DNA of 64,000 nucleotides from Phenylobacterium sp. (GTDB lineage Bacteria > Pseudomonadota > Alphaproteobacteria > Caulobacterales > Caulobacteraceae), in NCBI RefSeq assembly GCF_030679875.1, contig NZ_JAUXSP010000009.1, forward strand, positions 1-64,000, read 5' to 3'. The position numbers and the translations under genes were made by a program. The notes beneath the pieces are model-generated. The model was not told the origin of the DNA, did not search any database, and was given only the letters and a program-made list of their open reading frames with translations. This document shows, piece by piece, positions 6,738 to 53,582 of the stretch (the stretch's first letter is position 1; each line of letters starts with the position of its first letter).

Positions 6738-7559
<822 letters not shown>

Positions 7560-38169: not shown

Positions 38170-38173
38170 CGGC

Positions 38174-38368: not shown

Positions 38369-38372
38369 CGGC

Positions 38373-38597: not shown

Positions 38598-38765
38598 CGG
38601 CTCACCTCTGCCTGGATTGTCGGGTGTTTCGGATCAGTGGTCACGCCCTGGCGAAGCGGCTCCCAGGGGTCTCGCCTTGGCCCTCCGGTCGCCCGTTCGA
38701 TGGGCGGGAGTCGGGCCGGCGTGGTGCGGTTTCGGTTGCGCCGCGGGCTGGTCGCCTTGGACCGC

Positions 38766-38969
38766 TCAACCCGAGGCGCGGAGGTCCCGGACGTGGTTCA
38801 ACGGGCCGCGCTTATCGGATCCAGACGCCGGATAGGTCATCATCCGCTCCAGGCCCCTGAAGGTCAGAACAACGGCCATGTGCTTGGCCCGATGCTCCCG
38901 CCTCCAGGTCACGCCGGGCCACATGATCAGCTCGCGCTCTGTAGCGAGGTCGTATTCGCAGCGGCTCAA
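38766..38969 (-). CDS. Small hypothetical protein (TTG start)
   Basis: 67 codons read from TTG 38,969, which overlaps the previous stop. Sequence MSRCEYDLATERELIMWPGV then HMAVVLTFRGLERMMTYPAS GSDKRGPLNHVRDLRA: a compact alpha-beta protein with a common phage look. A longer frame upstream is Arg-rich and overlaps neighbours, so it was not used. Confidence 0.5.
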   Translation of the reverse strand: MSRCEYDLATERELIMWPGVTWRREHRAKHMAVVLTFRGLERMMTYPASGSDKRGPLNHVRDLRASG

Positions 38970-39160
38970 TGCAACCGCTCCTGCGCCGTGGCGGTTTCGG
39001 ACTCGCCTTCGTCCATCAACTCTCCGTCGATCCGGGCGCCGGATGCGATCAGGTCGCGGAGGAACCCCTCGGCCTGGTCGTGGTCCTCGGCTTCGAGACG
39101 GAAGACACGGCTCGCGCCGGAGCTGTCGCGGAAGGAGCCGGTGTAGGTGCGGACGGTCAC
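38966..39160 (-). CDS. Small hypothetical protein (GTG start)
   Basis: 64 codons from GTG 39,160, overlapping the nuclease stop (GTGA). MTVRTYTGSFRDSSGASRVF then RLEAEDHDQAEGFLRDLIAS: beta hairpin plus helix. Function unknown. Confidence 0.5.
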   Translation of the reverse strand: MTVRTYTGSFRDSSGASRVFRLEAEDHDQAEGFLRDLIASGARIDGELMDEGESETATAQERLH

Positions 39161-39489
39161 CGGGCGTACTCCCCGCCTGAGTAGCGCGGCCAATCGGCGG
39201 CATGGCCATGGCGGACCATCTCAGCGGCGATGTCCCGGCCGTCTGACGTGCGCCGGCAGCGCGCCACAACGCGGTCATAGGACTTGCCCTTGCGCTCGCA
39301 TCGCAGGTCGGTTCGGCGGATGATGTCGGACATCGCACGGGTCGCGGCGGGACCTTCGGCGTGGTGGCGTTCCGGCGCCTGAATGCCCCAAATCCTGACT
39401 CGCGTTCCGTCCTGGCAGCGGAGGCTATCTCCGTCGATCACGCCAGGGCTTGCGCAGAGGAACACGGCGGCGGCGAGGGTGGCGATCAT
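39157..39489 (-). CDS. Secreted micrococcal-nuclease-like protein
   Basis: 110 codons. A short N-terminal signal-type helix (MIATLAAAVFLCASPG), then the SNase core VIDGDSLRCQDGTRVRIWGI QAPE, with Arg and the final Glu of the active site but Gln in place of the usual calcium-ligand Asp. Further on CERKGKSYDRVVARC RTSDGRDIAAEMVR. Such SNase-like proteins degrade nucleic acids in the periplasm. The substituted ligand may reduce activity. Confidence 0.65.
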   Translation of the reverse strand: MIATLAAAVFLCASPGVIDGDSLRCQDGTRVRIWGIQAPERHHAEGPAATRAMSDIIRRTDLRCERKGKSYDRVVARCRRTSDGRDIAAEMVRHGHAADWPRYSGGEYAR

Positions 39490-40607
39490 GCCGCGCGCTC
39501 CTCAAGAACCTGGGCGCCATGCGCCCGCAGGGCTCGCGGGCCTCCCTTGCGGATCAGGTCGGCCACGGTCCCGCTGCTCGTGACGATCGCGCCTCGGTCC
39601 TGGTCCCATCGGCACATGCGCAGGACGCCATTGGCGTGGTCCTCGCCCATCTCGCGGCGAAGGTCGGCCAGCAGGTCAGGCGGGCCGTTCCAGGCCAGGG
39701 GTGTGACGGGCGGCGCGGCTGGGCTGACCAGCTTCCACAGGCCCTTGCGCAGCCAACGGTCAAACCTCGGGACCCTGCCGCCGCCGTCGGCGTACTGGCC
39801 CGCCGCAAAGGCCTTGGCCGCCGCGAGGATCGCCGCCGGGGTTGCGCCCGCCGCAATCTCGTCGTCCCAGGCCTCGCCCATCGCCTCAATGCTGACGGTC
39901 AGGCGTCCGGCTTCCGGGTAGGCCTGGACCGCAAGGCCGAAGGCATCGTCTCGCAAATCCCCCCGAGGGGGGTTGGGGGGTTCTTCTTCTATAATCCCTG
40001 TCCCTGTCCCTGTCCCTGTCCCTTGCGATCCCGTTGGGACGGTTTTGGTATCCCGTTGGGACTGGTTTTCGGTCCCGTTGGGATTGCCGTCGTCATCTTG
40101 TCTGGACTGCCGACGCTTGATTTTCAGCAGGGCTTTCGACTGCGGCGAGATGCGCGCCAGGAGTGCGGCGGCATGTTCGATGGCATGTTCGATGTCGGCC
40201 GGATCAAAGCTGATCTTCCACCGCTTGGCGTTCCCGGCGCCCGACGACAGGCGCTGCGAAAGCTTTTCCAGCCAGGCCTCGAGGGCAAACTCGCAGACCG
40301 TCTCGTGATAGTGCCGGCCGTCGTCGCACAGGACAAAGCCCCGCATCGCCGCAGATTTCACCTTGCGCCAGGTGCGCAGGTCCCGACCGAGGCCGGCGGC
40401 CTTGGCCAAGGCGGCTTCGTCATCCGACAGGCTTCCGGCGGGGACGGAATGCCAGGCCGAAAACCAGAGGTTCAGGCCGGCGCGCCAGGCGCTATCGTCG
40501 GGCGTGGCGTCAAAGTCGGATTGGCGCAGGCGGGTGATGTCCAGCATCATCCGGGGGAAGTCCCGCAGATCGCATTCTGGCGGGGTCAGTGGCGGATGCG
40601 CCATCAT
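39486..40607 (-). CDS. DUF1376-type replication initiator
   Basis: 373 codons. N-terminal about 100 residues (FPRMMLDITRLRQSDFDATP, AWRAGLNLWFSAWHSVPAGS, DLRTWRKVKSAAMRGFVLCD) match the DUF1376 winged-helix domain of phage replisome-organiser proteins. A low-complexity linker (residues about 170-215) is encoded by iterons and hexamer repeats. The C-terminal domain (ASAEAMGEAWDDEIAAGATP) probably binds the helicase. Like lambda O it directly precedes a DnaB-pathway gene. Origin recognition is inferred. Confidence 0.7.
   Translation of the reverse strand: MMAHPPLTPPECDLRDFPRMMLDITRLRQSDFDATPDDSAWRAGLNLWFSAWHSVPAGSLSDDEAALAKAAGLGRDLRTWRKVKSAAMRGFVLCDDGRHYHETVCEFALEAWLEKLSQRLSSGAGNAKRWKISFDPADIEHAIEHAAALLARISPQSKALLKIKRRQSRQDDDGNPNGTENQSQRDTKTVPTGSQGTGTGTGTGIIEEEPPNPPRGDLRDDAFGLAVQAYPEAGRLTVSIEAMGEAWDDEIAAGATPAAILAAAKAFAAGQYADGGGRVPRFDRWLRKGLWKLVSPAAPPVTPLAWNGPPDLLADLRREMGEDHANGVLRMCRWDQDRGAIVTSSGTVADLIRKGGPRALRAHGAQVLEERAA
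39981..40083. repeat. Candidate prophage replication origin (three iterons)
   Basis: CCCGTTGGGA at 40,030, 40,052 and 40,074, exactly 22 bases apart, each followed by a GGTTTT-type T-rich stretch. Adjacent are four TCCCTG hexamers (39,995-40,018) and an AT-richer patch (TTCTTCTTCTATAAT, 39,980-39,994). All lie inside the linker of the replication gene, as the lambda origin does inside O. Confidence 0.7.
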
Positions 40608-42097
40608 GCGTCTCCATAGGGCGAGCGCGCCGGAAAGCGGTCATCGCTCGCGAGGTTTGAGAACTTGGTCAGGTCGCCATTGAAGGCGAGGCTCACGGTC
40701 CCGATGGGGCCATGGCGTTGCTTGCCGATGATCACGTCGGCCCGACCACGGCAGGCGTCCATCTTCGTGATCCAAGCCTCATAACCGGCCGTGTTCGGCT
40801 CAGGCCTGGACCGCTCCAGGTAATATTCTTCCCGGTAGAGGAAGAGGACCATATCGGCGTCCTGCTCGATGGAGCCGGACTCGCGGAGGTCGGAGAGTTG
40901 TGGGCGCTTGTCCTCGCGCTGCTCAACCTGGCGGGAGAGCTGCGAAAGGGCGATCACGGGGACGTCCAAGTCTTTGGCCAGGGCCTTAAGCCCCATGGTG
41001 ATCTCTGAGACCTCTTGGACCCGGTTGCCGTCCTTGCGGCCCGTGGTGACGAGTTGCAGGTAGTCCACCACGATCAAGTCGAGGCCGGTCATGCGTTTCT
41101 GGCGCCGGGCGCGGGCCGCCAGCTTGGCCAGGGCAAGGCCGCCCGTGGCGTCGATATGCAGCGGGGCTTCCTGGATTTCGATAGCGGCGTCTCTGACCCG
41201 GCCAAACTCGTGGGCCTCGATCTCGCCCTTTCGGATGCGATCGCCCGACACGCCGGAGGATTCCGCCAGGATACGCATGGCCAGCTGTTCGGCGCTCATC
41301 TCCAGGGAGAAGAACAGCACCTGACCGCCGGCCGTGGTGCGACGGGTTCCGTCTGGCCGGGTCTCGTAGGCGTAATTCCGAGCCGCGTGGAAGGCGATGT
41401 TTGCCGCCAGCGCGGTCTTGCCGGCCGATGGGCGAGCCGCCAGGATCACCAGATCAGACGGATGCAGGCCGCCCAGCTTGCGGTCCAAGTCGATCAGTCC
41501 GGTGGACAGGCCAGACAGTCCCCCGTCACGCTCAAAGGCGGCTGCGGCCATCTTGACCGCGCCCGTGACGGCATCGGCGAAGGATACCACACCGGCGCTT
41601 TGACCGCGGCCATTCTCAGCCAGCTTGTAGAGCGCGCCCTCCGCACCTTCGATCAGGTCGGCGGCGGATGCGTCGATTTCCGGGTCTGTGGCCTGGGCCT
41701 CGAGGTCGCCGGCAATGCGGATCAGCTCGCGGCGCTTGGCCGTTTCGATGACGGCGCGGGCGTAGTCCCTGGCGTGAGCCGAGGGCGGGGCTTGTTCCAC
41801 CAGCAGGGCGAGGTAGCGCAGCCCGCCAAGCTCCTCAAAGGCCGGGTCGCGCGCTACCTGATCGGCCACAAGGATGGGCTCGGCAAGCTGGCCACGCCGG
41901 ATCGCGCTTTCGATGATCGCAAACAGCCGGGCGTGGAAGGGTTCGAAGAAGTGGTCGGCCTTCAGGTCATCGCAGCGGTCGAAAGCGGCGTTGTCGTACA
42001 GCAGGGCGCCCAGGACGTACTGTTCGGCCTCCAGGTTGCACGGGATATGCTTGATCGGCGGGGCGTCATTGGCCGGCGTCAGGGTCAGCGCGTTCAT
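40604..42097 (-). CDS. Replicative DNA helicase, DnaB type
   Basis: 497 codons. N-terminal DnaB domain (IPCNLEAEQYVLGALLYDNA) that binds primase and loader; the RecA-like domain has Walker A ARPSAGKT (residues 220-228), FFSLEMSAEQLAMR, Walker B DLIVVDYLQLV, Arg-containing QLSDLRESGSIEQDADMVLF. Complete for the family (about 470). It unwinds DNA ahead of the replisome; recruited presumably by the adjacent initiator. Overlaps it by 4 bases. Confidence 0.92.
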   Translation of the reverse strand: MNALTLTPANDAPPIKHIPCNLEAEQYVLGALLYDNAAFDRCDDLKADHFFEPFHARLFAIIESAIRRGQLAEPILVADQVARDPAFEELGGLRYLALLVEQAPPSAHARDYARAVIETAKRRELIRIAGDLEAQATDPEIDASAADLIEGAEGALYKLAENGRGQSAGVVSFADAVTGAVKMAAAAFERDGGLSGLSTGLIDLDRKLGGLHPSDLVILAARPSAGKTALAANIAFHAARNYAYETRPDGTRRTTAGGQVLFFSLEMSAEQLAMRILAESSGVSGDRIRKGEIEAHEFGRVRDAAIEIQEAPLHIDATGGLALAKLAARARRQKRMTGLDLIVVDYLQLVTTGRKDGNRVQEVSEITMGLKALAKDLDVPVIALSQLSRQVEQREDKRPQLSDLRESGSIEQDADMVLFLYREEYYLERSRPEPNTAGYEAWITKMDACRGRADVIIGKQRHGPIGTVSLAFNGDLTKFSNLASDDRFPARSPYGDA

Positions 42098-42231
42098 GCC
42101 GCCTCCCCCTGGTCCTGATCCCGATCCAGGGCCTTATCCAGCACCTGGGCCGCGACCTTCGCCACTACGGGGCCGATGGGGTTTAGGCCTTCGGAGGGGG
42201 GCTCTGAGGGCGTCTGGGGGGCTTCGCTCAC
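42094..42231 (-). CDS. Small hypothetical protein (45 aa)
   Basis: GTG start overlapping the upstream stop; MSEAPQTPSEPPSEGLNPIG then VAKVAAQVLDKALDRDQDQ. Pro/Glu-rich start and one helix. Coupled to dnaB by overlap. Function unknown. Confidence 0.45.
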   Translation of the reverse strand: MSEAPQTPSEPPSEGLNPIGPVVAKVAAQVLDKALDRDQDQGEAA

Positions 42232-42425
42232 CGGCTCCACCCCTTCGCGATCCCGCGCCGATGGGCTCTCTCGACCACATGGGACTTGAGCAATTCGATC
42301 TCTCCAAGGGTTCGGTCCAGGCCGATGGAGTCGAGGAGCGCGTCGGCGCATCCCCTCATCTTGGCGGCGTCGAGGTGAATGGCGGCGGCCCTGATCTCTT
42401 CGGTTTCACGGGCGGGGGCGGTCAT
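42228..42425 (-). CDS. Small hypothetical protein
   Basis: 65 codons, helical (RAAAIHLDAAKMRGCADALL; LGEIELLKSHVVERAHRRGI). Overlaps neighbours on both sides by 4 bases. No family recognised. Confidence 0.5.
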   Translation of the reverse strand: MTAPARETEEIRAAAIHLDAAKMRGCADALLDSIGLDRTLGEIELLKSHVVERAHRRGIAKGWSR

Positions 42426-43000
42426 GCGGCCTGACCTTCAAGCGCCGCGCTCAACCGCTCCGCATCCACGTCGAACAGCTCGGCAAACTCTTCGACGCTT
42501 AGGCCCTTGGCGATTTGCTGGCGCGCCCTGGCGAGGAGTTCCGGCGTGATGGGCTTCAGGCGGATGATCTGGACGCCGTTGCCGACGTTCTGGAGCGTTG
42601 CGCCCCGGGGGATGGCGCGACCCTTGGGCCTGGCTTCCTGGCGCCGGCGGACCTCAGCGATGGTCTTCGGGGGCGCGGCAGGCGCTAGCGGGGCTTCCTG
42701 GCGCTCGGCGAGGGCCTTGGTCCGCAGGGCGTAGCGAACGGCCTCCTCGGCTGCGTCCTGGGCTTTCTGGAACCGGACGCCGCCATGTTGCCGGGCGCTG
42801 CTGATCGAGGTCGTGCGATAGCCGAGCGTCCGGCAGATATCGGAGATGGCCGTCTGAGACCCGCGCGCCAAGCCGGTGATGGCGGGCGCAAGGCATCGCC
42901 GCGCAAGGCCCGCCTTCACGGTCAGGGCCTCGATGGGATCGTCCCCATAGTTGACGGCCGAGGCGATGATGGCCCGGGCGTAGAGATCAGCCGAGGGCAT
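42422..43000 (-). CDS. DnaA-domain-IV-like / HTH protein
   Basis: 192 codons from MPSADLYARAIIASAVNYGD. Residues 1-70 resemble the C-terminal DNA-binding domain of DnaA (GLARRCLAPAITGLARGSQT, then ICRTLGYRTTSISSARQHGG, where 'S ... I.R.LG.R..S...A' follows the DnaA signature). The C-terminal 40 residues (RARQQIAKGLSVEEFAELFD) are an HTH shared with the next gene. It may act in replication control or as a transcription factor; undecided. Confidence 0.5.
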   Translation of the reverse strand: MPSADLYARAIIASAVNYGDDPIEALTVKAGLARRCLAPAITGLARGSQTAISDICRTLGYRTTSISSARQHGGVRFQKAQDAAEEAVRYALRTKALAERQEAPLAPAAPPKTIAEVRRRQEARPKGRAIPRGATLQNVGNGVQIIRLKPITPELLARARQQIAKGLSVEEFAELFDVDAERLSAALEGQAA

Positions 43001-43533
43001 CAGGCGACCCCCTCCAGGGCTTGCGCCAGACGGTCGGCGTCGAGACGGAAGGTCATGGCGAACTCGTCGAGGCTCATGCCGCGTGACAACTGCTGGCGAG
43101 CCCAACGGACATGCCGATCGGTCGGGGCTTTGCGCTCCAGCCTGACCACGCCCTGGGGAAGGGCTCGGGCCTGACCGCCCTCGATCACGCGGAGATGGCG
43201 GAAGGTGTTGGGCGCGGGCCGGTCGTTCTCGCCGGGCAAGGCCGGGGCGGTGCGGCGTCTGATGGTCTGGACCGCAGAGAAGCCGCCAGCCAGGGTCAGG
43301 GCCCGGCAATGCTGATCGACCTTCTCAGGGTTTGGCGCGAACGGGTCGGCCATGTTGAGGTTGATCAGGCCCTCGCGCTCGGCTTTCCACCAGATCGCAT
43401 CCAAGCCCCGGTTGAGGATGGGCGCGATGCGTCGGCAGTTGGCGAGCGGGCCAATGGCGCGGTTCCATTCGGCATGGAACGTGGCGTTATCTTCCGGGGT
43501 CCAACGGGCGCCGCGTGGGCGGGTGCTGTTCAT
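43000..43533 (-). CDS. DNA-binding protein, Myb/GcrA-like start, shared C-terminal HTH
   Basis: 177 codons. Residues 8-57 (RWTPEDNATFHAEWNRAIG, RIAPILNRGLDAIWWKAERE) look like a Myb/SANT or GcrA-type tri-helical domain. C-terminal RWARQQLSRGMSLDEFAMTF with LDADRLAQALEG repeats the end of the downstream gene, so the pair probably arose by domain duplication. Stop-start overlap (TGATG) with that gene. Regulator role inferred. Confidence 0.5.
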   Translation of the reverse strand: MNSTRPRGARWTPEDNATFHAEWNRAIGPLANCRRIAPILNRGLDAIWWKAEREGLINLNMADPFAPNPEKVDQHCRALTLAGGFSAVQTIRRRTAPALPGENDRPAPNTFRHLRVIEGGQARALPQGVVRLERKAPTDRHVRWARQQLSRGMSLDEFAMTFRLDADRLAQALEGVA

Positions 43534-43970
43534 GCTGCGATCCCTTGTTTGGATTGGCGGGCGGTGTCTGGGCGGATGGTGACGTCGACGCCAGCCGTCG
43601 AGGCGTAGGTCTTCCCGGCGTTGATCCAGCAGACCTGGGCGTCATCGGCGAAGGCCACGGCGTTGCAGCCGTCGAGAACCGCCTTGATGATGTTGTCGAG
43701 GTCCGGGCGCTTGGCGGGATGGATCTCACCAGCCAGCATGGCGGCGCGGGCGCCCTTCGAGGTCGAGGCCGCAGGCTCCAGCCGGACGATGATGGAGACC
43801 TCCACCGGCCCGGCGAACCGCTCACGCCCCGCCATGGCGACATGGGCGGCGTGCTTGATCAGGCTCTCATAGGCGACGGTCTTCGCGTCGGTGAAGGTGC
43901 GGCCGCCGCCGAAGCGGGGCCGACCCTTGCCGCGAGGCGCGCCGGGGATGGTGAAGGTCAAGGCGGTCAT
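43530..43970 (-). CDS. rusA: RusA-family Holliday-junction resolvase
   Basis: 146 codons from MTALTFTIPGAPRGKGRPRF; start set by ATGA overlap. Signature KRPDLDNIIKAVLDGCNAVA with FADDAQV supplies the catalytic Asp residues, and the N-terminal FTIPG.P.GKGRPR strand is typical. It cuts recombination and replication intermediates before packaging. Confidence 0.88.
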   Translation of the reverse strand: MTALTFTIPGAPRGKGRPRFGGGRTFTDAKTVAYESLIKHAAHVAMAGRERFAGPVEVSIIVRLEPAASTSKGARAAMLAGEIHPAKRPDLDNIIKAVLDGCNAVAFADDAQVCWINAGKTYASTAGVDVTIRPDTARQSKQGIAA

Positions 43971-44194
43971 TGCGGCGGCCACTCCCGCCCAAGCTCTTTG
44001 GCGAGGCTCGCGTGGAAAGCCCGATAGGCGGCGCCCTGCGCGAGGCCCAAGGCCCCGTCGTTGCCCCTCTTGCGGGCTTCATGGGCGAGGCCAGCGGCGA
44101 CGCTCTGGGCGATGGCCAGGGCCTGGGCCACCTCAGGCGAGGGGGCGGGCTTGACCGGGCGGCGGCGGGTGAAGTCGAAGAGGCCGAGGGTCAT
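43967..44194 (-). CDS. Small hypothetical protein
   Basis: 75 codons from MTLGLFDFTRRRPVKPAPSP, chosen by overlap with the previous stop. Ala-rich helices (EVAQALAIAQSVAAGLAHEA). Coupled to rusA. Function unknown. Confidence 0.5.
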   Translation of the reverse strand: MTLGLFDFTRRRPVKPAPSPEVAQALAIAQSVAAGLAHEARKRGNDGALGLAQGAAYRAFHASLAKELGREWPPQ

Positions 44195-44331
44195 TGATGC
44201 CCCCGCGCCGCGCAGAACCAGTACAGGGCGATCAGCGGCCAAACGACCGACGACCAATCACCCTCGATCAGGGAGATGATCGCGACGCCGACCGATGAGA
44301 CCACAAATGTGCCGTTCAGGATGGCGACCAT
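44191..44331 (-). CDS. Small membrane protein (46 aa)
   Basis: Start MVAILNGTFVVSSVGVAIIS, coupled by TGATG to the GapR-like gene. Two hydrophobic stretches (about residues 5-20 and 26-42, SSVVWPLIALYWFCAARGH). Too short for the usual gene finders but well placed. Function unknown. Confidence 0.5.
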   Translation of the reverse strand: MVAILNGTFVVSSVGVAIISLIEGDWSSVVWPLIALYWFCAARGHQ

Positions 44332-44597
44332 CACAGGTCGAGCCCCGCCGCGTGGGCGTACAGGTCGAGCAGGGCTTCCTCTTCCTGCCGAGCGGCCCGC
44401 GACTTGCCGCGCAGGGAGACGACCTTTCGGATGATGCGGGGATCGAATCCCTGGCTCTTCGCTTCCGCCAGCACGTCGCGGATGTGGGCGCCGACTTCCT
44501 GGCGCTCCGTGGTCAGGTTCTCGACGCGCTCGATGAAGCTGCGAAGCTGGCCCTGGGCGGTTTCGTTCAGGACGTCGGCGTGGGCTTGATCGGTCAT
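44331..44597 (-). CDS. gapR: GapR-family (DUF2312) nucleoid protein
   Basis: 88 codons from MTDQAHADVLNETAQGQLRS. It matches GapR over the whole length: LRSFIERVENLTTERQEVGA, HIRDVLAEAKSQGFDPRIIR, KVVSLRGKSRAARQEEEALL, DLYAHAAGL. Caulobacter GapR (89 residues) binds overtwisted AT-rich DNA ahead of replication and transcription and stimulates topoisomerases. A phage copy would support phage replication or compete with the host protein. Encoded between small membrane proteins in the early operon. Confidence 0.85.
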   Translation of the reverse strand: MTDQAHADVLNETAQGQLRSFIERVENLTTERQEVGAHIRDVLAEAKSQGFDPRIIRKVVSLRGKSRAARQEEEALLDLYAHAAGLDL

Positions 44598-44599
44598 GA

Positions 44600-44779
44600 T
44601 CACCACGCCCCAAACCAGACGCCGACGCCGTGAATGACGCCCACGGGAGCGGCGATGGCGCCGGCGATCAGGAACAGCCAGGAGCCGGTCTTGATGCAGA
44701 CGATGACGTGGGTGAGCCAGGCGGCGATGAGGCTGAAAATCAGGCCGACGGCGGCCAGGGGTGCGAAGAGATTGGACAT
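44600..44779 (-). CDS. Small two-helix membrane protein (59 aa)
   Basis: MSNLFAPLAAVGLIFSLIAA then LTHVIVCIKTGSWLFLIAGA IAAPVGVIHGVGVWFGAW: two membrane helices. The stop is two bases before the GapR start. Ribosome site GGGGGAAA precedes it, within the repeat that also precedes the radical SAM gene. Function unknown. Confidence 0.55.
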   Translation of the reverse strand: MSNLFAPLAAVGLIFSLIAAWLTHVIVCIKTGSWLFLIAGAIAAPVGVIHGVGVWFGAW

Positions 44780-44837
44780 GGGTTTCCCCCATCAGGTCAG
44801 GCGCTCCACCCGGCGCCTGGTCGGGTAAGCGGTTAAG
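44780..44837 (-). repeat. Cassette repeat, copy B (after the radical SAM gene)
   Basis: Read leftward: TAACCGCTTACCCG, then a hairpin (AGGCGC...GCGCCT arms), then TGACC and GGGGGAAACCC before the next ATG. Copy A at 45,784-45,841 has the same order. The first TAA is the stop of the gene just upstream in both cases. Confidence 0.75.
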
Positions 44838-45783
44838 CCGCGACGGGCGCGTGAACCTTGGGCAGGTCAGAGCCGATGGACGGCTTGGCGAGATCGGGGT
44901 GACGCGCCATCCAGTCCTGAACGAACCAGAGTTGGCCGCAGCCGCCGCCGATGGTGTCCTGGCCGGCGGGGTCGAAGACCCGCACGTCGTATCCGCGGGC
45001 GACCAGCTTTGCGGCGAAGTCCGTGGCGAGGCCGCGCTGATGGTCGTTGGTCGCGGGCATTCCCTCGTTGCGCTCGCAGACCACAGAGACGGTCGCGCAC
45101 CACACGTCCGGCCGGTAGAGCGCCAGGATGCGGTCGGCGTCGGCGTCGGTGCTGTTGCCGTCGTGGGCGCAGTAATTGAAGAACGGGCGGCGCCCGGTGA
45201 GGTTGGCCCAGGCCTCGCCGGTCCTGGCGATGGCGGCCAGGGTGAGCTTGTGCTTGAAGGGGACCAGAGCGTCCCGAGCTTCATCGGTGCTTTCGTGAAC
45301 CGAAAATTGCAGACCAACGGTCGGGACCTCTACGCTCAGGTCGGCGACCTCGCCGTAGTCCACAGACGGGGCGGACGTGGAGATCAGGAGGGCGGCGCTG
45401 GGATAGAGCCGATGCAGGTCGCGGATGGCCGGGGCGAGGGCCTTCATGTTCAGGAGCGGCTCGCCCATGGACATGAACATGATCTGGAGGCGGCCCATCT
45501 CCTCAGCAGTCACGCCCTCGGCTTCGAAAGCCGCGTCCAGACAATGGACAGCCTGAGAAACGATCTCGGCTTGGGTCAGGGAGCGGACGAAGGCGTCGCC
45601 GGCGCCGCAGAACCGGCAACCGACCGGACAACCGCTTTGCGTCGAGATACAGATGACCGTTCGCTCAGCGTAGGTCGGATAGCGATAGAGAACCGCCTCA
45701 GCGACGGCGGTGTTGCTGGAAAAGACGAACTTGGCGACGTTCTCTTGTTCGTCGTCGATCCGCTTGATGTCGTTCCAGGTCAT
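44833..45783 (-). CDS. RlmN/Cfr-like radical SAM methyltransferase
   Basis: 316 codons. All five catalytic cysteines of the RlmN family can be placed: C45 in VICISTQ, the iron-sulphur motif C52-x3-C56-x2-C59 (SGCPVGCRFCGAG), and C282 in GGGCGQL (the methyl-carrying Cys). Also FMSMGEPLLN and FNYCAHDGNSTDADADRILA. Shorter than bacterial RlmN (about 385) because the N-terminal accessory domain is nearly absent. RlmN methylates A2503 of 23S rRNA and some tRNAs. Here the target is unknown. Flanked by direct repeats. Confidence 0.8.
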   Translation of the reverse strand: MTWNDIKRIDDEQENVAKFVFSSNTAVAEAVLYRYPTYAERTVICISTQSGCPVGCRFCGAGDAFVRSLTQAEIVSQAVHCLDAAFEAEGVTAEEMGRLQIMFMSMGEPLLNMKALAPAIRDLHRLYPSAALLISTSAPSVDYGEVADLSVEVPTVGLQFSVHESTDEARDALVPFKHKLTLAAIARTGEAWANLTGRRPFFNYCAHDGNSTDADADRILALYRPDVWCATVSVVCERNEGMPATNDHQRGLATDFAAKLVARGYDVRVFDPAGQDTIGGGCGQLWFVQDWMARHPDLAKPSIGSDLPKVHAPVAA

Positions 45784-45841
45784 GGGGTTTCCCCTGGGGT
45801 CAGCCGCTCAAACCCGCGCGGCTGATGCGGGTAAGCGGTTA
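45784..45841 (-). repeat. Cassette repeat, copy A (before the radical SAM gene)
   Basis: Same layout as the repeat at 44,780: TAACCGCTTACCCG, hairpin with AGCCGC/GCGGCT arms, TGACCCC, and GGGGAAACCCC leading to the ATG. Confidence 0.75.
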
Positions 45842-46324
45842 CTGATCTGAGGAGCGAGACCGGCTCACGCGGGCAAACTCGCCTTGCAGCTTCAGTGCGG
45901 CGGCGTCATAGGCGCGCGAGGCAGCTTCCGGGCTGTCGTATTGTCCGAGGTAGTGGTGGACGCCGGCGCAGGTGATCTGCGCAATCCAGGCGCGGCGGCG
46001 GCTATTGAAGCTCACGCCCTTGAAGCCTGACGTGTTGCGCCTTGTCAGACCGACATTGTGCCGGTTCTCCGTGAAGCCGCACAGACGCAAGTTCTCAAGC
46101 CGGTTGTCGAGCTTGTCGCCGTTGATGTGGTCCACCTGGGCGCCGTTCGGAGCGTCCATCAGAAAGCGGTGCAGGTACTCGCGGCGATGGTTGCCGCGCG
46201 GCCCGACCCCTCGGCAGGCATACCGGCCGTCAAAGCACCACTTGAAAGTGCCGGCCTTAGCCAAGCCGGTTGGATCCACCAGCGCCACGCGGCCTTGGGT
46301 CAGGGGGATTTCATGAACGCTCAT
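45839..46324 (-). CDS. HNH endonuclease with AP2 domain
   Basis: 161 codons from MSVHEIPLTQGRVALVDPTG. HNH part: REYLHRFLMDAPNGAQVDHI NGDKLDNRLENLRLC, with His-Asn-His type residues. AP2 part: SGFKGVSFNSRRRAWIAQIT, YLGQYDSPEAASRAYDAAAL. This combination is the common free-standing homing endonuclease of phages. It may explain the mobility of the neighbouring radical SAM gene, whose upstream repeat starts at its stop codon. Confidence 0.88.
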   Translation of the reverse strand: MSVHEIPLTQGRVALVDPTGLAKAGTFKWCFDGRYACRGVGPRGNHRREYLHRFLMDAPNGAQVDHINGDKLDNRLENLRLCGFTENRHNVGLTRRNTSGFKGVSFNSRRRAWIAQITCAGVHHYLGQYDSPEAASRAYDAAALKLQGEFARVSRSRSSDQ

Positions 46325-46494
46325 GCAAGCCACCGCCAAGCCGCCTGGATGCGCCCGCGAGACCATTCAGTGACCGCCCGCGCCGCGTCGGCGACTAGGC
46401 TGAACACCAGCGTCAGAAGCGCGCCGATCAGGTACAGGAGCGAAAGACCGCAGATCGCGAGCCACAGTCCGCAGCGTTTGAGCGCGCTCAACAT
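46321..46494 (-). CDS. Small membrane protein
   Basis: 57 codons from MLSALKRCGLWLAICGLSLL with AAAGG upstream; ATG at 46,509 is an alternative. One or two membrane helices (SLLYLIGALLTLVFSLVADA) and an Arg/Trp C-terminus. The stop overlaps the HNH start. It overlaps the end of the upstream gene by about 128 bases in another frame, which is unusual. Confidence 0.5.
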   Translation of the reverse strand: MLSALKRCGLWLAICGLSLLYLIGALLTLVFSLVADAARAVTEWSRGRIQAAWRWLA

Positions 46495-46807
46495 GGCGCC
46501 GCCTTTCATTGTTGATGAATTGGTCGGCGGTTTCGTCCAGCAGGGCGCCGAACACCGCGAAGAGGACCGGCCAGCCGCCGTTCGGGTGCTGGATGATCTT
46601 GTCGAAGGTCTGCCAAGACGCCCGGCCCGAGCAGACCGAGCGGGCCTCGTCTTCATTCAAGCCCCACTCGACGCCTACCGACTTGCGGCGGGCCGAGGGC
46701 CAGCGAAGGGCGGCGTATTGGGCGAGCGCATCGCGTGTGCGCTCAAGACCGAAGCCGGGAAGATTTTTCCCAAAGCAGTCGCGGATTTCCATGGGCCTCA
46801 CCGTCAT
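46367..46807 (-). CDS. HTH-like regulator candidate, uncertain 3' end
   Basis: Start MTVRPMEIRDCFGKNLPGFG (ATG 46,807; 46,816 also possible). Residues 1-110 are protein-like, with an HTH-like EWGLNEDEARSVCSGRASWQ TFDKII and WPVLFAVFGALLDETADQFI. The last 45 residues are Arg/Ala-rich and overlap the next gene, suggesting the true end is nearer 46,500 or a frameshift. Divergent from the small rightward gene at 46,849. Confidence 0.45.
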   Translation of the reverse strand: MTVRPMEIRDCFGKNLPGFGLERTRDALAQYAALRWPSARRKSVGVEWGLNEDEARSVCSGRASWQTFDKIIQHPNGGWPVLFAVFGALLDETADQFINNERRRHVERAQTLRTVARDLRSFAPVPDRRASDAGVQPSRRRGAGGH

Positions 46808-46848
46808 GTTGAACACGACGGAAGGGCGGCCAGCGAGGAGCGGCGCAG

Positions 46849-47025
46849 ATGGGAGAGCGGATCGACACTGAGGGACTTGAAGTCGCGCTGACGGTCTGGG
46901 AGGCCGCTCAAGCGCAAATGGATGACAGGCTGCATAAGAACCGCGAGGCGACCTCTGCCCGGCTGTTCTGGAAGGCTCTGAACGTCAGGACCGCGCGGCT
47001 GCAACCGCGTCGGCCTGGACAATGA
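46849..47025 (+). CDS. Small rightward helical protein (58 aa)
   Basis: MGERIDTEGLEVALTVWEAA then QMDDRLHKNREATSARLFWK: a regular charged helix with GAGGAGCGG upstream. It is opposite in orientation to the early block around it. A leftward frame over the same DNA (MTSRVHNEPS..., 46,804-47,117) has worse composition. Function unknown. Confidence 0.4.
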   Translation: MGERIDTEGLEVALTVWEAAQAQMDDRLHKNREATSARLFWKALNVRTARLQPRRPGQ

Positions 47026-47102
47026 GACAGGGGAATAGGCGCCGGACGCGGGGAGAGACCGCGCCCGGCTTTCGTGCGTCCACGCAGAGGGCTCGTTGTG
47101 GA

Positions 47103-47119
47103 CACGCGAAGTCATGCCG
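47103..47119. repeat. 17-bp direct repeat, copy 1
   Basis: CACGCGAAGTCATGCCG, identical to 47,981-47,997. The two copies lie at the exact ends of the DNA methyltransferase gene. Confidence 0.85.
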
Positions 47120-47993
47120 CGGCCTCGGTTTGGGGCCGATAGACGCGGGCAATGTGAGAGGAGAGCGCCAGGGGAATCTTGGCGATCTTGGCGCTGGCGG
47201 CTTTGCGGGCGGGCGACTTGCTGGACAGCTTGCACAGGTTCTGGTCGAACCATTCCGCGCCCGCGCCCGCGCCCGCGCCCTTGCGGCCTTCGGCGACTTC
47301 GCGCTCAACGCCGCAATCGCGAGACGTGAACCGCGCGCCTTTGCCTTTGTCAGTTCGGCGCCCGCCATCAAGAGCCGGCACTTTTACAGCCACATGCGCC
47401 TCAACGCTGGCCGTCTGGAACGACCGACCCGATCCGTCGAACCGGAAGCCAGGCACCTTGCGCGCATCGACAACAGTCGGCATGAGCGCGGGGACGTCGC
47501 CCCAGAGGTAGTAGGAGCCGAAGTTCGCAGCGGCGCGGCCGACCCAAGGCTGGGCGCCGCGGACGTTCTCGACGACCATGGGGATGTATCGACCCGCCGC
47601 CTGGCTGGCCTCACGCTGGATGCGGAAGCAGGCGTTGAACAGGGCGTTGAGTTCGTCGAGGGTGCGCGAGCCCTTGTAGCCATCGGGGAACACGTCTTCG
47701 CCGCGCAGAGCCCGCGCGATCTGCTTGGCCCGGGACCAGGGCATGGCCATGTAGGAATATTCAGTGCAGGGCGGGCTGGCGACGATCAGGTCCGCGTCGG
47801 CGCAGGCGGCCCCGTCAAGGTCGAGGATGCTCTTAAGCACCAGCTCGCCGGGATACCGCTCGTCCCCGTACTCATGGGCTTCGATGTCGTAGCCGCGAGC
47901 GCGGTAGCCCTCCTGCAGAAGGCCCTCGGTCCACCCACCAAGGCCACAGCACAGATCAACCGCAAGGGGTTTTGATGTCTCACGCGAAGTCAT
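47112..47993 (-). CDS. DNA cytosine-methyltransferase-like protein
   Basis: 293 codons from MTSRETSKPLAVDLCCGLGG. C5-methyltransferase motifs: I (VDLCCGLGGWTEGLL), IV with the catalytic Cys (VASPPCTEYS), VI (VVENVRG) and a final KIPLALSSHIARVY like motif X. The target-recognition region (residues about 190-260) is short and contains a GAGAGAGA tract from GCGCCC hexamers. It could protect phage DNA from restriction or alter gene expression. Sits between HNH-type genes and small ORFs; bracketed by a 17-bp direct repeat. Confidence 0.8.
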   Translation of the reverse strand: MTSRETSKPLAVDLCCGLGGWTEGLLQEGYRARGYDIEAHEYGDERYPGELVLKSILDLDGAACADADLIVASPPCTEYSYMAMPWSRAKQIARALRGEDVFPDGYKGSRTLDELNALFNACFRIQREASQAAGRYIPMVVENVRGAQPWVGRAAANFGSYYLWGDVPALMPTVVDARKVPGFRFDGSGRSFQTASVEAHVAVKVPALDGGRRTDKGKGARFTSRDCGVEREVAEGRKGAGAGAGAEWFDQNLCKLSSKSPARKAASAKIAKIPLALSSHIARVYRPQTEAAA

Positions 47994-47997
47994 GCCG
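47981..47997. repeat. 17-bp direct repeat, copy 2
   Basis: Same sequence as 47,103-47,119, covering the methyltransferase start codon. Confidence 0.85.
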
Positions 47998-48352
47998 TCA
48001 CCGTCTCTGGGGTGGCGAACAGGTCGATTTGCGGGGCTTTCCGACGGCGAGTCGCGGCGGCGTTGCGCGCGTGGTGCTTGGCGTCGTAGGTCAGGTGGCA
48101 CCGCTGGCACATGGCCCGCAGGTTGGAGCGGTTGCCCGGCTCTCCGCAGTTCTCAGGAACATGGTCGAGGTGCGCGACGGTCAGGACGACGCGCGATCCC
48201 GTCACCGGATGCGGCTTGCCGTTCTCAGCCCGGCAGTCCTCATAGAAGCCCGGCGAGCCTTCGCAGACCCAGCCAGCGGCCTCGCGAACCTCCAGGCTGA
48301 TCGCCTTCCAATCCTTCGGATAGCGAGCGCGGTTCTCAGCGGAGATAGGCAC
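47990..48352 (-). CDS. HNH-type endonuclease-like protein
   Basis: 120 codons. Pattern WVCEGSPGFYEDCRAENGKP ... VAHLDHVPENC, NRSNLRAMCQRCHLTYDAKH: paired CxxC-type zinc ligands with 'AHLDH', 'N..NL...C..CH' of HNH nucleases. Found as free genes in many phages. ATGA overlap with the methyltransferase gene, so the two are co-expressed. Confidence 0.75.
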   Translation of the reverse strand: MPISAENRARYPKDWKAISLEVREAAGWVCEGSPGFYEDCRAENGKPHPVTGSRVVLTVAHLDHVPENCGEPGNRSNLRAMCQRCHLTYDAKHHARNAAATRRRKAPQIDLFATPETVTA

Positions 48353-48706
48353 CTACACCCCCCCCACTTCACGAGGGGCGGGAACACGACGGGGCTCCTC
48401 GTAGCTGGTAGAGGTCTCAAGCCATTCGGAGATGTCGGGGAGCTTGCGGAAATGCTCGATCAGCCATCCGCCAAGATCGCCGTTCCAGGCGGTCCAATGC
48501 GTCTCCGGCTCGACGAGGATCAGACCGCACGCCGGGATGCTAATGCCAGTGTTGAAATGGTCTCGGTCGCGGACCTCAAGGACGGTGTAGATGCGCCCGG
48601 CGACGATCCGCGCGGGCTCAACATCACCAACCTTGGCGAAGCTATCCGGCGAGCGAGCGTCAACGTCGCGGATTGCCTGCACGCGATCACCCGGCCCGAT
48701 ATCCAT
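48353..48706 (-). CDS. Hypothetical protein
   Basis: 117 codons, start MDIGPGDRVQAIRDVDARSP. The N-terminal half is an SH3-like beta barrel by pattern (GDRVQAI ... IVAGRIYTVLEVRDRD ... GLILVEPE), as in many small phage proteins. The rest is unrecognised. Confidence 0.5.
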   Translation of the reverse strand: MDIGPGDRVQAIRDVDARSPDSFAKVGDVEPARIVAGRIYTVLEVRDRDHFNTGISIPACGLILVEPETHWTAWNGDLGGWLIEHFRKLPDISEWLETSTSYEEPRRVPAPREVGGV

Positions 48707-48708
48707 GG

Positions 48709-48749
48709 TCAGGCGGCCTCTTGTTTGGAGGGGGGAGAGGGCTTGGCGG
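48709..48749. repeat. 41-bp direct repeat, copy 1
   Basis: Matches 49,858-49,898 with one mismatch (position 27). Encodes the C-terminal residues and stop of the gene it lies in. Confidence 0.85.
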
Positions 48750-49167
48750 CGAGAACTTCGGCTTCAAGGGCGTCGGCGTGAGCGAGGCGGGCCTTGGCGG
48801 ACTTCCGCAGCGTCTCGACGTTCCACTGGCGCTCGTCGGCAGTGAGAGCCGCGCGCAGCTTGTACATCGGCTCGGCGCCCGACTTCCGAGGGATTGGATA
48901 GCGGGTTTGCAGGTGGCCGGAGAACAGAACGCCTTGGTGCGCCTCGCTCTCGTCGCTCTCGGAATTGTAGCGACCGGACAGCACGCCGCGCGCGATCTGC
49001 TTCAGCCCCTCAAGGCTGGCGTGCGCGATTTCGGGCGCCAGGGACGCGCCCCCGCTGTAGCGGGCCTGTAGGATGAGGGCGAGCGACGTGGGCGAAACGA
49101 TGTCAGGGCCATCACCGTCGCCTAGCAGGGCGTGGCAGTCGGTGCGGATACGCTCATACAGGCTCAT
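48709..49167 (-). CDS. Hypothetical protein, repeat-encoded C-terminus
   Basis: 152 codons from MSLYERIRTDCHALLGDGDG. Middle helical part (ETLRKSAKARLAHADALEAE). The last residues KPSPPSKQEAA are encoded by the 41-bp repeat and are nearly identical to the end of the Cro-like protein at 49,858. Overlaps the upstream gene by 14 bases. Confidence 0.5.
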   Translation of the reverse strand: MSLYERIRTDCHALLGDGDGPDIVSPTSLALILQARYSGGASLAPEIAHASLEGLKQIARGVLSGRYNSESDESEAHQGVLFSGHLQTRYPIPRKSGAEPMYKLRAALTADERQWNVETLRKSAKARLAHADALEAEVLAAKPSPPSKQEAA

Positions 49168-49858
49168 GTTCGGCCTCCAGGCTGTTGAGGAAATCAGCGA
49201 CCAGCGGCGCAAGGCGCAGCACGTCTGCGCGCATGGCGTCGGTCATCTGACGCAGCAGGCGGGACGGGTCGGCGCTGAAGTAGCCATCGCGCTCGAAGTC
49301 GCGCAGCCGCCCCCAGAGCCACAGCGCATCGTCAGGGACGCGCGGCGCAGGCGTCGGCTCTCTCACCGTGGCGCGGGCGATGACGCCTTTTGTGGACGGC
49401 TTCTCGGGGGCCTTCAGCGCCCGCTCAAAGTCGGCCTCGGGGATGTTTGCCAAGGCCTGGAACTTGTGCGCGGTCTGCCGGGAAATGCCGTGTTCGTAGA
49501 GCGCCGACGCATAGGGCGACGGGCCTTTCGGCATGGCTTGTTCGGAAATCGAACGCGTATCCTCGGGGGACGCGTTCACCGCCCGCGCAAGTCCGCTGGC
49601 CCGGCCCGCGTCGGCATGATCGGCCCGCGCCAAATCCTTCAGAAGCTCGCCCACCCGGCGCTCGGCCCGCAGGCGGACGTTCGCCGCTTCACGCTCGGCG
49701 TCCAGGTTGCGGGCCTGCCGGTAATAGGCTTCCAGCGCCAGGGCCTTGTCGCGAATGTCTTTCGCCTCATCGACGGCGACGCACTCCGCGATGGCGCTGC
49801 ACATGCGCTCGTAAAGGGCGAGGCCGGGCGCGGTCTGAATGACGGCGGGCGCGCCCAT
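49154..49858 (-). CDS. Helical protein of phage early region
   Basis: 234 codons. Residues 20-110 (DEAKDIRDKALALEAYYRQA, LDAEREAANVRLRAERRVGE, LLKDL) match a group of proteins common in phage and island early regions that resemble plasmid partition-associated helicals; GISRQTAHKFQALANIPEAD follows as an HTH. Function unknown. The stop lies in the next gene, the start overlaps Cro's stop. Confidence 0.55.
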   Translation of the reverse strand: MGAPAVIQTAPGLALYERMCSAIAECVAVDEAKDIRDKALALEAYYRQARNLDAEREAANVRLRAERRVGELLKDLARADHADAGRASGLARAVNASPEDTRSISEQAMPKGPSPYASALYEHGISRQTAHKFQALANIPEADFERALKAPEKPSTKGVIARATVREPTPAPRVPDDALWLWGRLRDFERDGYFSADPSRLLRQMTDAMRADVLRLAPLVADFLNSLEAEHEPV

Positions 49859-49898
49859 CAGGCGGCCTCTTGTTTGGAGGGGGAAGAGGGCTTGGCGG
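49858..49898. repeat. 41-bp direct repeat, copy 2
   Basis: Encodes the C-terminal end (SPSKQEAA) and stop of the Cro-like gene. See 48,709-48,749. Confidence 0.85.
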
Positions 49899-50106
49899 GC
49901 TTCAGCGGCACGCCAGGGGGCAACAGCTCGTCAACGGTGACGACAACACCACGCTTCCCGGCCTCCTGGATCAGGGCGGCCCAATGCTTGGCGGGAACGC
50001 GGTTTCCGATGCCCCAACGCTGCACCGCAGAGCGGTCCAAACCGAGCCATTCGGCGACGACCCGGTTGCCGCCGCAGCGCGAGATGATTTGTCGAACCGT
50101 TGTCAT
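49858..50106 (-). CDS. Cro-like repressor of the prophage
   Basis: 82 codons from MTTVRQIISRCGGNRVVAEW. The first 45 residues form a Cro/YdaS-type HTH (GGNRVVAEWLGLDRSAVQRW, GIGNRVPAKHW). Divergent from the CI-like gene. Its transcript would start only a few bases upstream of the ATG, so it may be translated as a nearly leaderless message. First gene of the leftward lytic operon. Confidence 0.75.
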   Translation of the reverse strand: MTTVRQIISRCGGNRVVAEWLGLDRSAVQRWGIGNRVPAKHWAALIQEAGKRGVVVTVDELLPPGVPLKPAKPSSPSKQEAA

Positions 50107-50114
50107 GGCCCCAA

Positions 50115-50143
50115 ATCTATGCGCTTTTCTCATATGCCGTCAA
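50115..50143 (-). promoter_or_regulatory. Leftward lytic promoter with operator in spacer
   Basis: Minus strand TTGACG (50,143-50,138), 17-bp spacer, ATAGAT (50,120-50,115). The spacer and -10 overlap an operator of 21 bases (50,116-50,136) shared with the rightward promoter (18 of 21 identical to 51,319-51,339). A perfect palindrome CGCATATGCG follows at 50,147. Confidence 0.7.
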
Positions 50144-50216
50144 GCACGCATATGCGATGCCCTATGAGAATTCCGCTCTAGCCGGGTTGCGGCAATTTGC
50201 GCTTTACCGCTTTTCT

Positions 50217-50858
50217 ATGGAAGCACCTTGGCTGAAATCAGAGCTGGAGAAGCCCGGTCGCTCTCAGGCCGCGCTCGCAAGATTCCTTGGAATTGAGCAA
50301 TCTAAGGTCAACCGCATGTGCAATGGCGGTCGGCAGATAAAGGCCAAGGAAGCCGAGGGCATTCGAGCCTATCTCGCCGCAACGGCGCAGTCTGGTGAAC
50401 ATGGCACTAATAATGCCACTAGACAGACGCCCACCGCCCGCCTGAAGGTGGTAGGCATAGTTGAAGCGGGGAGTTGGCGTGAAGTGGCTTACGCTGAAGA
50501 GATTGACCCTCCAACACTTGATGCGCCAACCCCTCTTGTTGAGAGCGGGGCTTTCGCGCTTCGCGTTGTCGGCCCCAGCATGGACCGATTGTATCGGGAG
50601 GGAACGTATATCGTCGTGCTGCCGTGGCAGGGCGGGGATCTGCCAGTTGGACGGCGGGTCGTGGTTGAGCGCGAAAAGCCCGACGGGACAGTCGAGACAA
50701 CCGTAAAGGACTTGGTTCGCGGAGAGGATGGCGAGCTGGAGCTTTGGCCCCGCTCAAGCCATCCGGCACACCAAGCCCCCATCCCCTATAAGGACGTTGA
50801 CGGGGTGACGGTTCGCCTGGTTGGCCGCGTCACCCACGCCATCATCCCCGAGGACTAG
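50217..50858 (+). CDS. CI-like repressor with S24 peptidase domain
   Basis: 213 codons from MEAPWLKSELEKPGRSQAAL; an upstream ATG (MPYENS) at 50,160 lies within the control region and is less likely. HTH at about 10-40 (RSQAALARFLGIEQSKVNRM). S24 domain: Ala-Gly cleavage-like IVEAGSWRE, the Ser in VVGPSMDRLY, Lys in ETTVKDLV. It would keep the prophage silent and be inactivated by RecA. Confidence 0.85.
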   Translation: MEAPWLKSELEKPGRSQAALARFLGIEQSKVNRMCNGGRQIKAKEAEGIRAYLAATAQSGEHGTNNATRQTPTARLKVVGIVEAGSWREVAYAEEIDPPTLDAPTPLVESGAFALRVVGPSMDRLYREGTYIVVLPWQGGDLPVGRRVVVEREKPDGTVETTVKDLVRGEDGELELWPRSSHPAHQAPIPYKDVDGVTVRLVGRVTHAIIPED

Positions 50859-51244
50859 TTACAGACTCGCGCGTAGCCCTTGCCGATGCAGGTTGTGCCG
50901 TCGCTGCTGATGTAGGAGCCGGTCTGGCTGTTATACTGCCAGAGGTTCCCGCTCGCATCGGTCCCGCGCATATTGCCGTTCGGATCTACGCGCGTGGTCC
51001 ACGTCGAGCCGGTGTTTAGGTTAGACCCGCGGACGGTCGTGCTGCCGCCATAGCTCGGCGTCGTGCGGTACACATTCCCGGACTGATAATCGTAGGTTGT
51101 CTGCGGCGCGCGGTAGGGAGCTGGCGCTTCATAGCCGCCGTATGTCGGGATTTCTGGCGGGCTCGGGACCATAGGCACCCATTGAGCCGACGCCACGGCT
51201 GGCGCTAGCGCGGCCAACAAAACTCCAATCAGAAGTGATCGCAT
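50855..51244 (-). CDS. Secreted protein beside the repressor
   Basis: 129 codons from MRSLLIGVLLAALAPAVASA with a GAGGGAAC site. Signal peptide cut after ASA, then a Tyr/Pro/Gly/Ser/Thr-rich mature chain (YGGYEAPAPYRAP, YGGSTTVRGSNLNTGS) and a C-terminal Cys pair (CIGKGYARVC). Converges on the repressor gene with a 4-base overlap. Position suggests expression in the lysogen and possible lysogenic conversion. Family not recognised. Confidence 0.65.
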   Translation of the reverse strand: MRSLLIGVLLAALAPAVASAQWVPMVPSPPEIPTYGGYEAPAPYRAPQTTYDYQSGNVYRTTPSYGGSTTVRGSNLNTGSTWTTRVDPNGNMRGTDASGNLWQYNSQTGSYISSDGTTCIGKGYARVCN

Positions 51245-51312
51245 GTCGTTCCCTCCGGTGAGGAGGCGACAATGCAGCACGCCGCTCATATGCGTCTTGT
51301 GCGTTTTTCGCA

Positions 51313-51341
51313 TTGACGTCTATGCGATCTTCTCATACGTT
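51313..51341 (+). promoter_or_regulatory. Rightward lytic promoter with operator in spacer
   Basis: TTGACG (51,313-51,318), 17-bp spacer, TACGTT. The operator 51,319-51,339 matches that of the leftward promoter. CTCATATGCG at 51,285 is another half-site. Drives the recombination operon starting at 51,384. Confidence 0.65.
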
Positions 51342-51383
51342 ATCCCCATCAGCCGCACACAGCGGCAAGGATGGAGAGCCGAG

Positions 51384-51860
51384 ATGGCCGCGTTACCCAA
51401 AGACATCACTCACGCCGAAGCCATGGCCGCCTTCAAGGCGCTGGTGGGACAAATGGGCGCTGGCGCTGACCTTTCGGTCGGCCTGGACATGGGCCGCTAC
51501 GGCAAGCCTAGCGGCGTTCTTCGCGCGACCTTCTGGCCGAACGGCCTCACCGCTTCCACCGGCCGTACGCAGTTCGGCGTTGCTGCCGACTCCTACCGCG
51601 AACTCCTCGCCGCCTCCGAAGCGGCTTGGGCCGAACGTTCAGACCTGCACGCCACCAACACCATCCGCGAGATGGCTCTGGCCATCATCAGCATCACCGC
51701 CGACCTCGGCGAATGCACTGACGCCGCCCTGCGCGCCAAGTTCGATGGCGCCGACGTGACCCGCTACGGCGACCGCGCCTGCGAAGCCGCCACTGAGATG
51801 GCGAGCAACGGCCCCTTCAGCATCGTGAAGCTGTCGGGCGCGAACGACATCGCCGCCTAA
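51384..51860 (+). CDS. Hypothetical protein, first gene of right operon
   Basis: 158 codons from MAALPKDITHAEAMAAFKAL, with GGAGAG upstream. Alpha-beta protein, Ala-rich; residues 50-90 (GVLRATFWPNGLTASTGRTQ) beta. No family recognised. A second copy of the operator lies 45 bases upstream. Confidence 0.6.
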   Translation: MAALPKDITHAEAMAAFKALVGQMGAGADLSVGLDMGRYGKPSGVLRATFWPNGLTASTGRTQFGVAADSYRELLAASEAAWAERSDLHATNTIREMALAIISITADLGECTDAALRAKFDGADVTRYGDRACEAATEMASNGPFSIVKLSGANDIAA

Positions 51861-51887
51861 CAACCCCCAACGGATGGAGAGCGCCTG

Positions 51888-52130
51888 ATGGCCGCTACCC
51901 TTATCAGCACCACGGATCGCTTCGACGCCGGCCTCCTCGGCTACGAGCGCGCCTGCAACCCCCGTGAAGACGGCGAGGGCCTGATCATCACCCTGGACGA
52001 CGGCTTCCCCCTCTCAATCACGCTCCTCGGTCCTGAGGGCGAAATCACTCTGTCCGGCAAGGCTGAGGTTCGGGAGGTCGCAAACACCCTCCTGTCGGCT
52101 CTGCGGGCTGCTGAAAAGGTGGCGGCGTAG
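51888..52130 (+). CDS. Small hypothetical protein
   Basis: 80 codons; beta-rich (GLIITLDDGFPLSITLLGPE) then a C-terminal helix. Ribosome site GGAGAG upstream. Function unknown. Confidence 0.55.
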   Translation: MAATLISTTDRFDAGLLGYERACNPREDGEGLIITLDDGFPLSITLLGPEGEITLSGKAEVREVANTLLSALRAAEKVAA

Positions 52131-53580: not shown

Positions 53581-53582
53581 CC

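Follow-up and report, generated by a model that had tools for sequence, protein, structure and literature searches.

Two copies of one short element occupy the gaps on either side of a phage-borne radical SAM gene in Phenylobacterium, and these copies may well be a duplicate, private to a single prophage, of an intergenic translation leader lying within an accessory block of five genes in a leftward operon. The likeness of the two gaps is more than chance, and the repeat is real, yet it looks local and modest. Duplication is supported by the strong similarity confined to the gaps, by the unusual gaps themselves, by the restriction to two copies, by the junction in a sister prophage and by the hairpins that both copies can form.

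The window (the whole stretch of 64,000 nucleotides that was analysed) includes a prophage that appears to extend from 12657 to 62322, the bounds being a repeat of 50 nt (96%) that corresponds to the 3' portion of tRNA-Phe. It contains a phage integrase gene (60536-61666) and a P22-like portal gene. The block is read on the minus strand and opens with the gene for an HNH-AP2 protein resembling homing endonucleases (45839..46324, with a predicted start codon), next door to the repeat as the preliminary description of this DNA had placed it. There follow copy A of the repeat, an RlmN/Cfr-like radical SAM gene (316 aa; 44833..45783), copy B, the gene for a 59-aa hydrophobic phage protein of phrog_7319, here called TM59 (44600..44779), that for a GapR-like DNA-binding protein (PF10073; 44331..44597) and, last in the block, a predicted small hydrophobic ORF of 46 aa to which I will refer by the label TM48 (44191..44331), all on the same strand. 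The block and the prophage are alike in GC content (65.4% and 66.4%). A simple scan of 43000-48500 gave no sigma-70-type promoter (other promoter types would escape it), and a terminator in the repeat was rejected, since the two T-tailed candidates from a simple scan both fall inside TM59.

Several other features of the window may be recorded here. The GapR-like gene was the target of many of the DNA matches listed from other genomes of the genus. According to ARAGORN the prophage contains a predicted tRNA-Pro (UGG; 53522-53598) that is absent from the Rfam results at the gathering threshold, and a long run of ATGCCG/ATGCCT repeats lies outside the prophage (7258-7467). There is also another duplicated gene-boundary module, a direct repeat of 41 nt (98%) with which two nearby prophage genes end (48709-48749 and 49858-49898), and which gives both proteins nearly identical last residues.

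Copy A (45784..45841, minus strand) runs from the stop codon of the HNH-AP2 gene (TAA, 45839-45841) to the ATG of the radical SAM gene (45783), and copy B (44780..44835, minus strand) from the stop codon of the radical SAM gene (TAA, 44833-44835) to the ATG of TM59 (44779). The first bases of both are the TAA of the preceding gene, and the last base is immediately 5' of the next ATG, so that the layout of stop, leader and start is as it had been described. Common to the two copies are TAACCGCTTACCCG, identical at 14/14 bases and opening with the upstream stop codon, a stem, TGACC and GGGGAAACCC. Each copy also has a G run that is likely to bind the ribosome and is able to pair with a C run 5' of the ATG (GGGGAAACCCC of copy A, 45784..45794; GGGGGAAACCC of copy B, 44780..44790; both minus strand).

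The global alignment of the two copies has a score of 31.5, as compared to a mean of 0.36 (sd 3.6, maximum 18) for 5000 dinucleotide shuffles of copy B. None of these shuffles aligned as well as the real pair, and the earlier claim of a repeat of about 55 bp on both sides of the radical SAM gene is borne out. With a covariance model made from copy A alone, copy B is recovered at E = 1.6e-7, and no other match in the window does better than E = 1.2. Outside the stop and start codons the ungapped identities are only 17/60 and 23/60, and the similarity is therefore confined to the gap; the longest run identical between the copies is short, about 14 nt. The gaps measure 55 and 53 nt, whereas the other seven neighbouring gene pairs that were measured overlap or lie at most 2 nt apart (one of the seven, formed by small genes upstream of HNH-AP2, has an uncertain gene end). 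The 11-mer CCGCTTACCCG has a further exact match at 37206-37216, where the remainder of the repeat is missing.

Pairing arms are present in both copies. Stem P1 of copy A (45801..45824, minus strand) consists of CAGCCGC and GCGGCTG around a 10-nt loop, with one outer U-A pair in addition, and that of copy B (44798..44819, minus strand) of CAGGCGC and GCGCCTG around an 8-nt loop, the outer pair being missing, for a total of 8 pairs in A and 7 in B. The arms differ between copies at 3/16 positions. The preliminary description took compensating changes in the arms as a sign that the RNA stem matters, a view that the statistics do not support. The double change in the stem amounts to a single pair, C-G to G-C, and in the hairpin formed by the G run and the C run a further pair is changed on both sides (G-C to U-A). 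The observed value for paired changes was reached by 122/500 shuffles and is thus not significant, and in 17% of trials with three random substitutions in the arms, 7 pairs or more are kept. Furthermore, MAFFT placed the arms wrongly, and copy B was instead aligned to a model whose two rows were both copy A, an alignment biased toward that structure. With two sequences, too few for a proper test of covariation, and with shuffles and random substitutions doing as well, the covariation argument has no footing in this pair of copies. The same symmetric change would also be expected from an inverted repeat acting as DNA.

Copies A and B are the only two found in the host genome. The pattern scans required exact letters, so that well-diverged copies would escape them; over 101 genomes of the genus Phenylobacterium they matched the prophage's own genome and 0/100 others. 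The scan of 84,980 species genomes gave three matches, none with the full 5' block, and these (MAGs from Clostridia, Hyphomonadaceae and Spirochaetia) were rejected by eye, as TAACC does not continue before GCTTACCCG. The scans of IMG/VR gave one, none and seven matches, none of them with the composite. Match L003 lies, by eye, inside an apparent helix-turn-helix gene and was put down to chance, and the seven matches of the last pattern were rejected by eye because none has GGGGAAACC. One of those seven, L200, shows a strong hairpin and then a T run.

The covariance model gave a similar picture. Applied to 82 loci (those of 47 radical SAM relatives and 33 TM59 relatives, one stretch of a Caulobacter phage and the sister prophage), it found nothing below E = 1.1, and in the best 80 of 92 loci of HNH relatives nothing below E = 2.7. 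In 299 family genomes the prophage's own two copies stand out. Six other matches, from the 298 other genomes, have E of 0.03-0.09, a cut-off at which about 30 would nominally be expected (the filters are strict and the E-values rough), and they lack the GGGGAAACCC end and look like chance. The leader was found at 0/43 radical SAM loci with upstream sequence in the contig (47 loci in total, 43 with downstream sequence) and at 0/33 loci of TM59 relatives, these being from IMG/VR. Relatives of the gene without the repeat, and matches elsewhere that look like chance, are largely what the preliminary description had named as telling against its proposal. The open-access literature, queried otherwise than by the repeat's own sequence, yielded no description of the repeat.

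The closest comparison comes from a sister prophage, the IMG/VR contig IMGVR_UViG_3300048578_000034 (50,920 bases, possibly a fragment; loci L188 and L189). Searched with window positions 38001-52000, it gives 14 matching pieces with DNA identities of 72-100%, and of the eight pieces of at least 400 bases, seven lie at 84-94% and one at 72%. A segment of 2.1 kb (44183..46319) is missing from the sister, which is continuous at the same site from window position 46320 to 44182 (junction at L188 9135/9137), with flanking identities of 94% upstream and 69% downstream. The missing segment comprises all five genes and both repeats. A DNA search for it elsewhere in the sister record, with both flanks recovered as positive control, gave only pieces of 15 to 20 bases; the protein search of that record ran without such a control. 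At the junction in the sister, the end of the upstream gene and the start of the next overlap as ATGA, and the window has the same ATGA overlap at both ends of the block, the start codon of HNH-AP2 lying at the upstream breakpoint. The sister thus differs by a five-gene block cut at ATGA junctions, not by a single gene between repeats, and its lack of the block could be a loss. When two neighbouring prophage genes were used as queries, the sister contig alone was recovered; for one of the two the search was extended to 298 other genomes of the family and gave no match. The block itself is known from a single genome. The two prophages differ as well in DnaB: that of the sister (L188 13495-15999) has 834 aa and, by eye, an insert resembling an intein directly behind the Walker A lysine, and that of the window (40604-42097) has 497 aa and no insert.

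The enzyme encoded between the copies is a phage relative of RlmN and Cfr, radical SAM methyltransferases of rRNA; the targets of RlmN are A2503 in 23S rRNA or A37 in tRNA. It shares their fold and their invariant cysteines but scores only 95 bits against the RlmN model TIGR00048, below the curated cut-off of 290, and the match to the profile begins at about position 70, so that the protein seems to be without the N-terminal part. A structure predicted with confidence (mean pLDDT 90.6) matches 6fz6 with E of 1e-20 and E. coli RlmN with 2.5e-17 by Foldseek. C45, C52, C56, C59 and C282 are invariant in 29/29 aligned sequences (28 of the 47 relatives together with the protein of the window), in keeping with the pattern of the RlmN/Cfr superfamily, CxxxCxxC plus two further cysteines that by this pattern have catalytic roles. 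I take the cysteines outside CxxxCxxC to be the equivalents of E. coli C118 and C355. Relatives of the protein occupy 47 IMG/VR loci, and 12 of the 40 phage records with any match are 47-61% identical over at least 91% of the query. At an E of 1e-30 the protein was not found in samples of 248 other genomes of the family and 384 other genomes of the class; the host has a normal RlmN of its own (388 bits). A search for a conserved partner gene gave as the largest common neighbour cluster one present at 16/48 loci, under a crude gene call that includes antisense frames.

Repeated modules at phage gene starts have been described before. In Cluster K mycobacteriophages (Pope et al. 2011, PMC3203893; PMC11373665), the SAS repeats lie directly 5' of the start codons of some of the non-structural genes, in gaps larger than usual, sometimes including the upstream stop, with GGG...CCC around the ribosome site. 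By the same accounts they have a fixed 13-mer, GGGATAGGAGCCC, in 11-19 copies per genome, and about half have an upstream inverted repeat (17-bp, with a spacer of 4-13 bp); ESAS has a putative SigA-like promoter. Pope et al. considered it improbable that the ESAS repeats act as RNA hairpins (PMC3203893). SAS and ESAS are the nearest published relatives known to me, their role being likewise unclear. Both prophage copies, like SAS, end at the base before the ATG. They differ in lacking the 13-bp GGGATAGGAGCCC, for they end in GGGGAAACCC and have only the outer GGG...CCC in common with it; in number, two as against 11-19; and in the lack of a SigA-like promoter by the simple scan of 43000-48500 (0 sites). 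The inverted repeat of the prophage copies has arms of 7-8 bp and a spacer of 8-10 nt. The promoter-stem-loop cassettes (PeSL) of T4-type phages, reportedly the subject of work by Arbiol in 2010 and Comeau in 2014, are said to be intergenic stem-loop modules thought to aid gene shuffling. The prophage repeat is likewise a short intergenic module with a stem-loop, but it has two copies only and, by simple scan, neither a promoter-like site nor a T-tailed terminator. Integron attC sites have paired core sites, GTTRRRY and RYYYAAC, at the ends of the repeat. Such sites are not seen here (by eye, GTTAAGC in copy B and GTTACTG in copy A on the complement), and attC was rejected. A riboswitch or other known RNA was rejected too, since no Rfam family rises above the gathering threshold at the repeat.

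It is conceivable, though on balance unlikely, that the two copies represent a cis-regulatory RNA common to both genes, in which the 5' block TAACCGCTTACCCG and the 5' arm of the hairpin compete for the loop and the 3' arm, with a ribosome at the TAA picking the fold. The folding results speak for this idea. The duplex of the invariant 5' block with the remainder of the leader was equalled by 0/1000 shuffles in A and 17/1000 in B, and the strength of the stem hairpin by 20/1000 and 22/1000, respectively. The pairing of the block with the loop and 3' arm excludes the stem, and the two folds are close in energy (in copy A, -21.0 for the stem fold and -25.9 for the best fold; in copy B, -21.7 for both). 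In addition, the conserved 14 bases begin at the stop codon. However, the copies are homologous and hence not independent, so that the fold statistics are nearer one observation than two, and the folding energy of the whole leader is unremarkable (z of -2.05 for A and an ordinary -0.86 for B). The stem's one double change disrupts a pair of the alternative fold, the hairpin of the G run fits either fold and has only a putative effect on initiation, and the searches gave neither an Rfam family nor a third copy. A more specific proposal, which I regard as very doubtful, is a two-state leader RNA that senses recent translation of the upstream gene, the same device preceding each of two consecutive genes in the accessory block. 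The footprint of a terminating ribosome would be large enough to cover bases that start at the stop codon. A ribosome terminating over the 14 invariant bases would release the loop and the 3' arm of the hairpin, and without that ribosome the 14 bases would pair with them and refold the leader. The inverted repeat might also act as DNA, as an operator bound by a phage protein, which has been proposed for ESAS of Cluster K. The palindrome TCAGCCGC-N10-GCGGCTGA does lie within the intergenic gap and is changed symmetrically in the other copy, but the spacers differ (10 and 8 nt), which is unusual for the site of a dimer, and the promoter scan described above, blind though it is to other promoter types, found no sigma-70-type promoter; I consider this decidedly improbable.

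Two further explanations concern the movement of genes. The preliminary description held that recombination between the copies would excise exactly one gene. The layout permits this, since each copy has a stop first and an ATG directly after, but no relative was found with one copy and without the gene, and the only close relative found lacks the larger block of five genes, with ends at ATGA junctions rather than at the repeats. The short identical run and the absence of the leader from the relatives of the gene add to the difficulty. That the radical SAM gene is a single-gene cassette, inserted or removed in this way, is thus highly improbable, and recombination between the copies is unnecessary for explaining anything observed. 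As for the whole block, the HNH-AP2 nuclease may have moved it by homing. The nuclease gene sits at the edge of the block with its start codon at the breakpoint, the site is uninterrupted in the sister, the protein has a match to a homing endonuclease, though a weak one (E 8e-4), and nuclease genes are reported at exchange boundaries of phages by Barth et al. (2023, PMC10448857), where an endonuclease gene bounds a segment (HEG island) that one phage carries and a relative lacks. HEG islands have endonuclease genes on both flanks. In the prophage, however, the nuclease stands on a single side, with TM48 rather than an endonuclease at the other end, the cargo of 2.1 kb is accessory and not essential, the block is known from no other carrier, and cleavage of the empty site is only putative. 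I therefore consider homing quite unlikely, attractive as HNH-AP2 is as the driver of the block and compatible as this would be with duplication of the leader.

In the reading I prefer, a duplicated leader, the element would have been brought along or copied when one of the two genes behind it, radical SAM or TM59, was joined to its neighbour, probably during the assembly of the accessory block. It would have been kept because these two genes, unlike neighbours that mostly overlap or nearly touch, need their own stop, spacing and ribosome site. The leader would end one gene and start the next, its G run, in part hidden by the C run, serving as the ribosome site. Both hairpins, the stem and that of the G run and C run, are able to form in both copies according to folding and the covariance model, and together they would tune the translation of the radical SAM gene and TM59. 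Plain duplication would be expected to overrun the codons at least once, yet the similarity ends at the stop and at the start, and a similarity bounded by codons also fits two leaders kept alike by function. The repeat is best regarded as one more case of a repeated module at phage gene starts, confined, within the reach of the searches, to a single prophage.

A leader that did change its fold with translation of the upstream gene would give phage operons a compact means of translation coupling. If it is a duplicated leader, it would offer a clear example of an accessory block fitted into a tight operon by whole stop-leader-start modules, which here adjoin an endonuclease gene, the corresponding site in a sister phage being uninterrupted. 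The finding also draws attention to a rare family of RlmN/Cfr-like enzymes, borne mostly by phages and present here in a host that already has an RlmN of its own.
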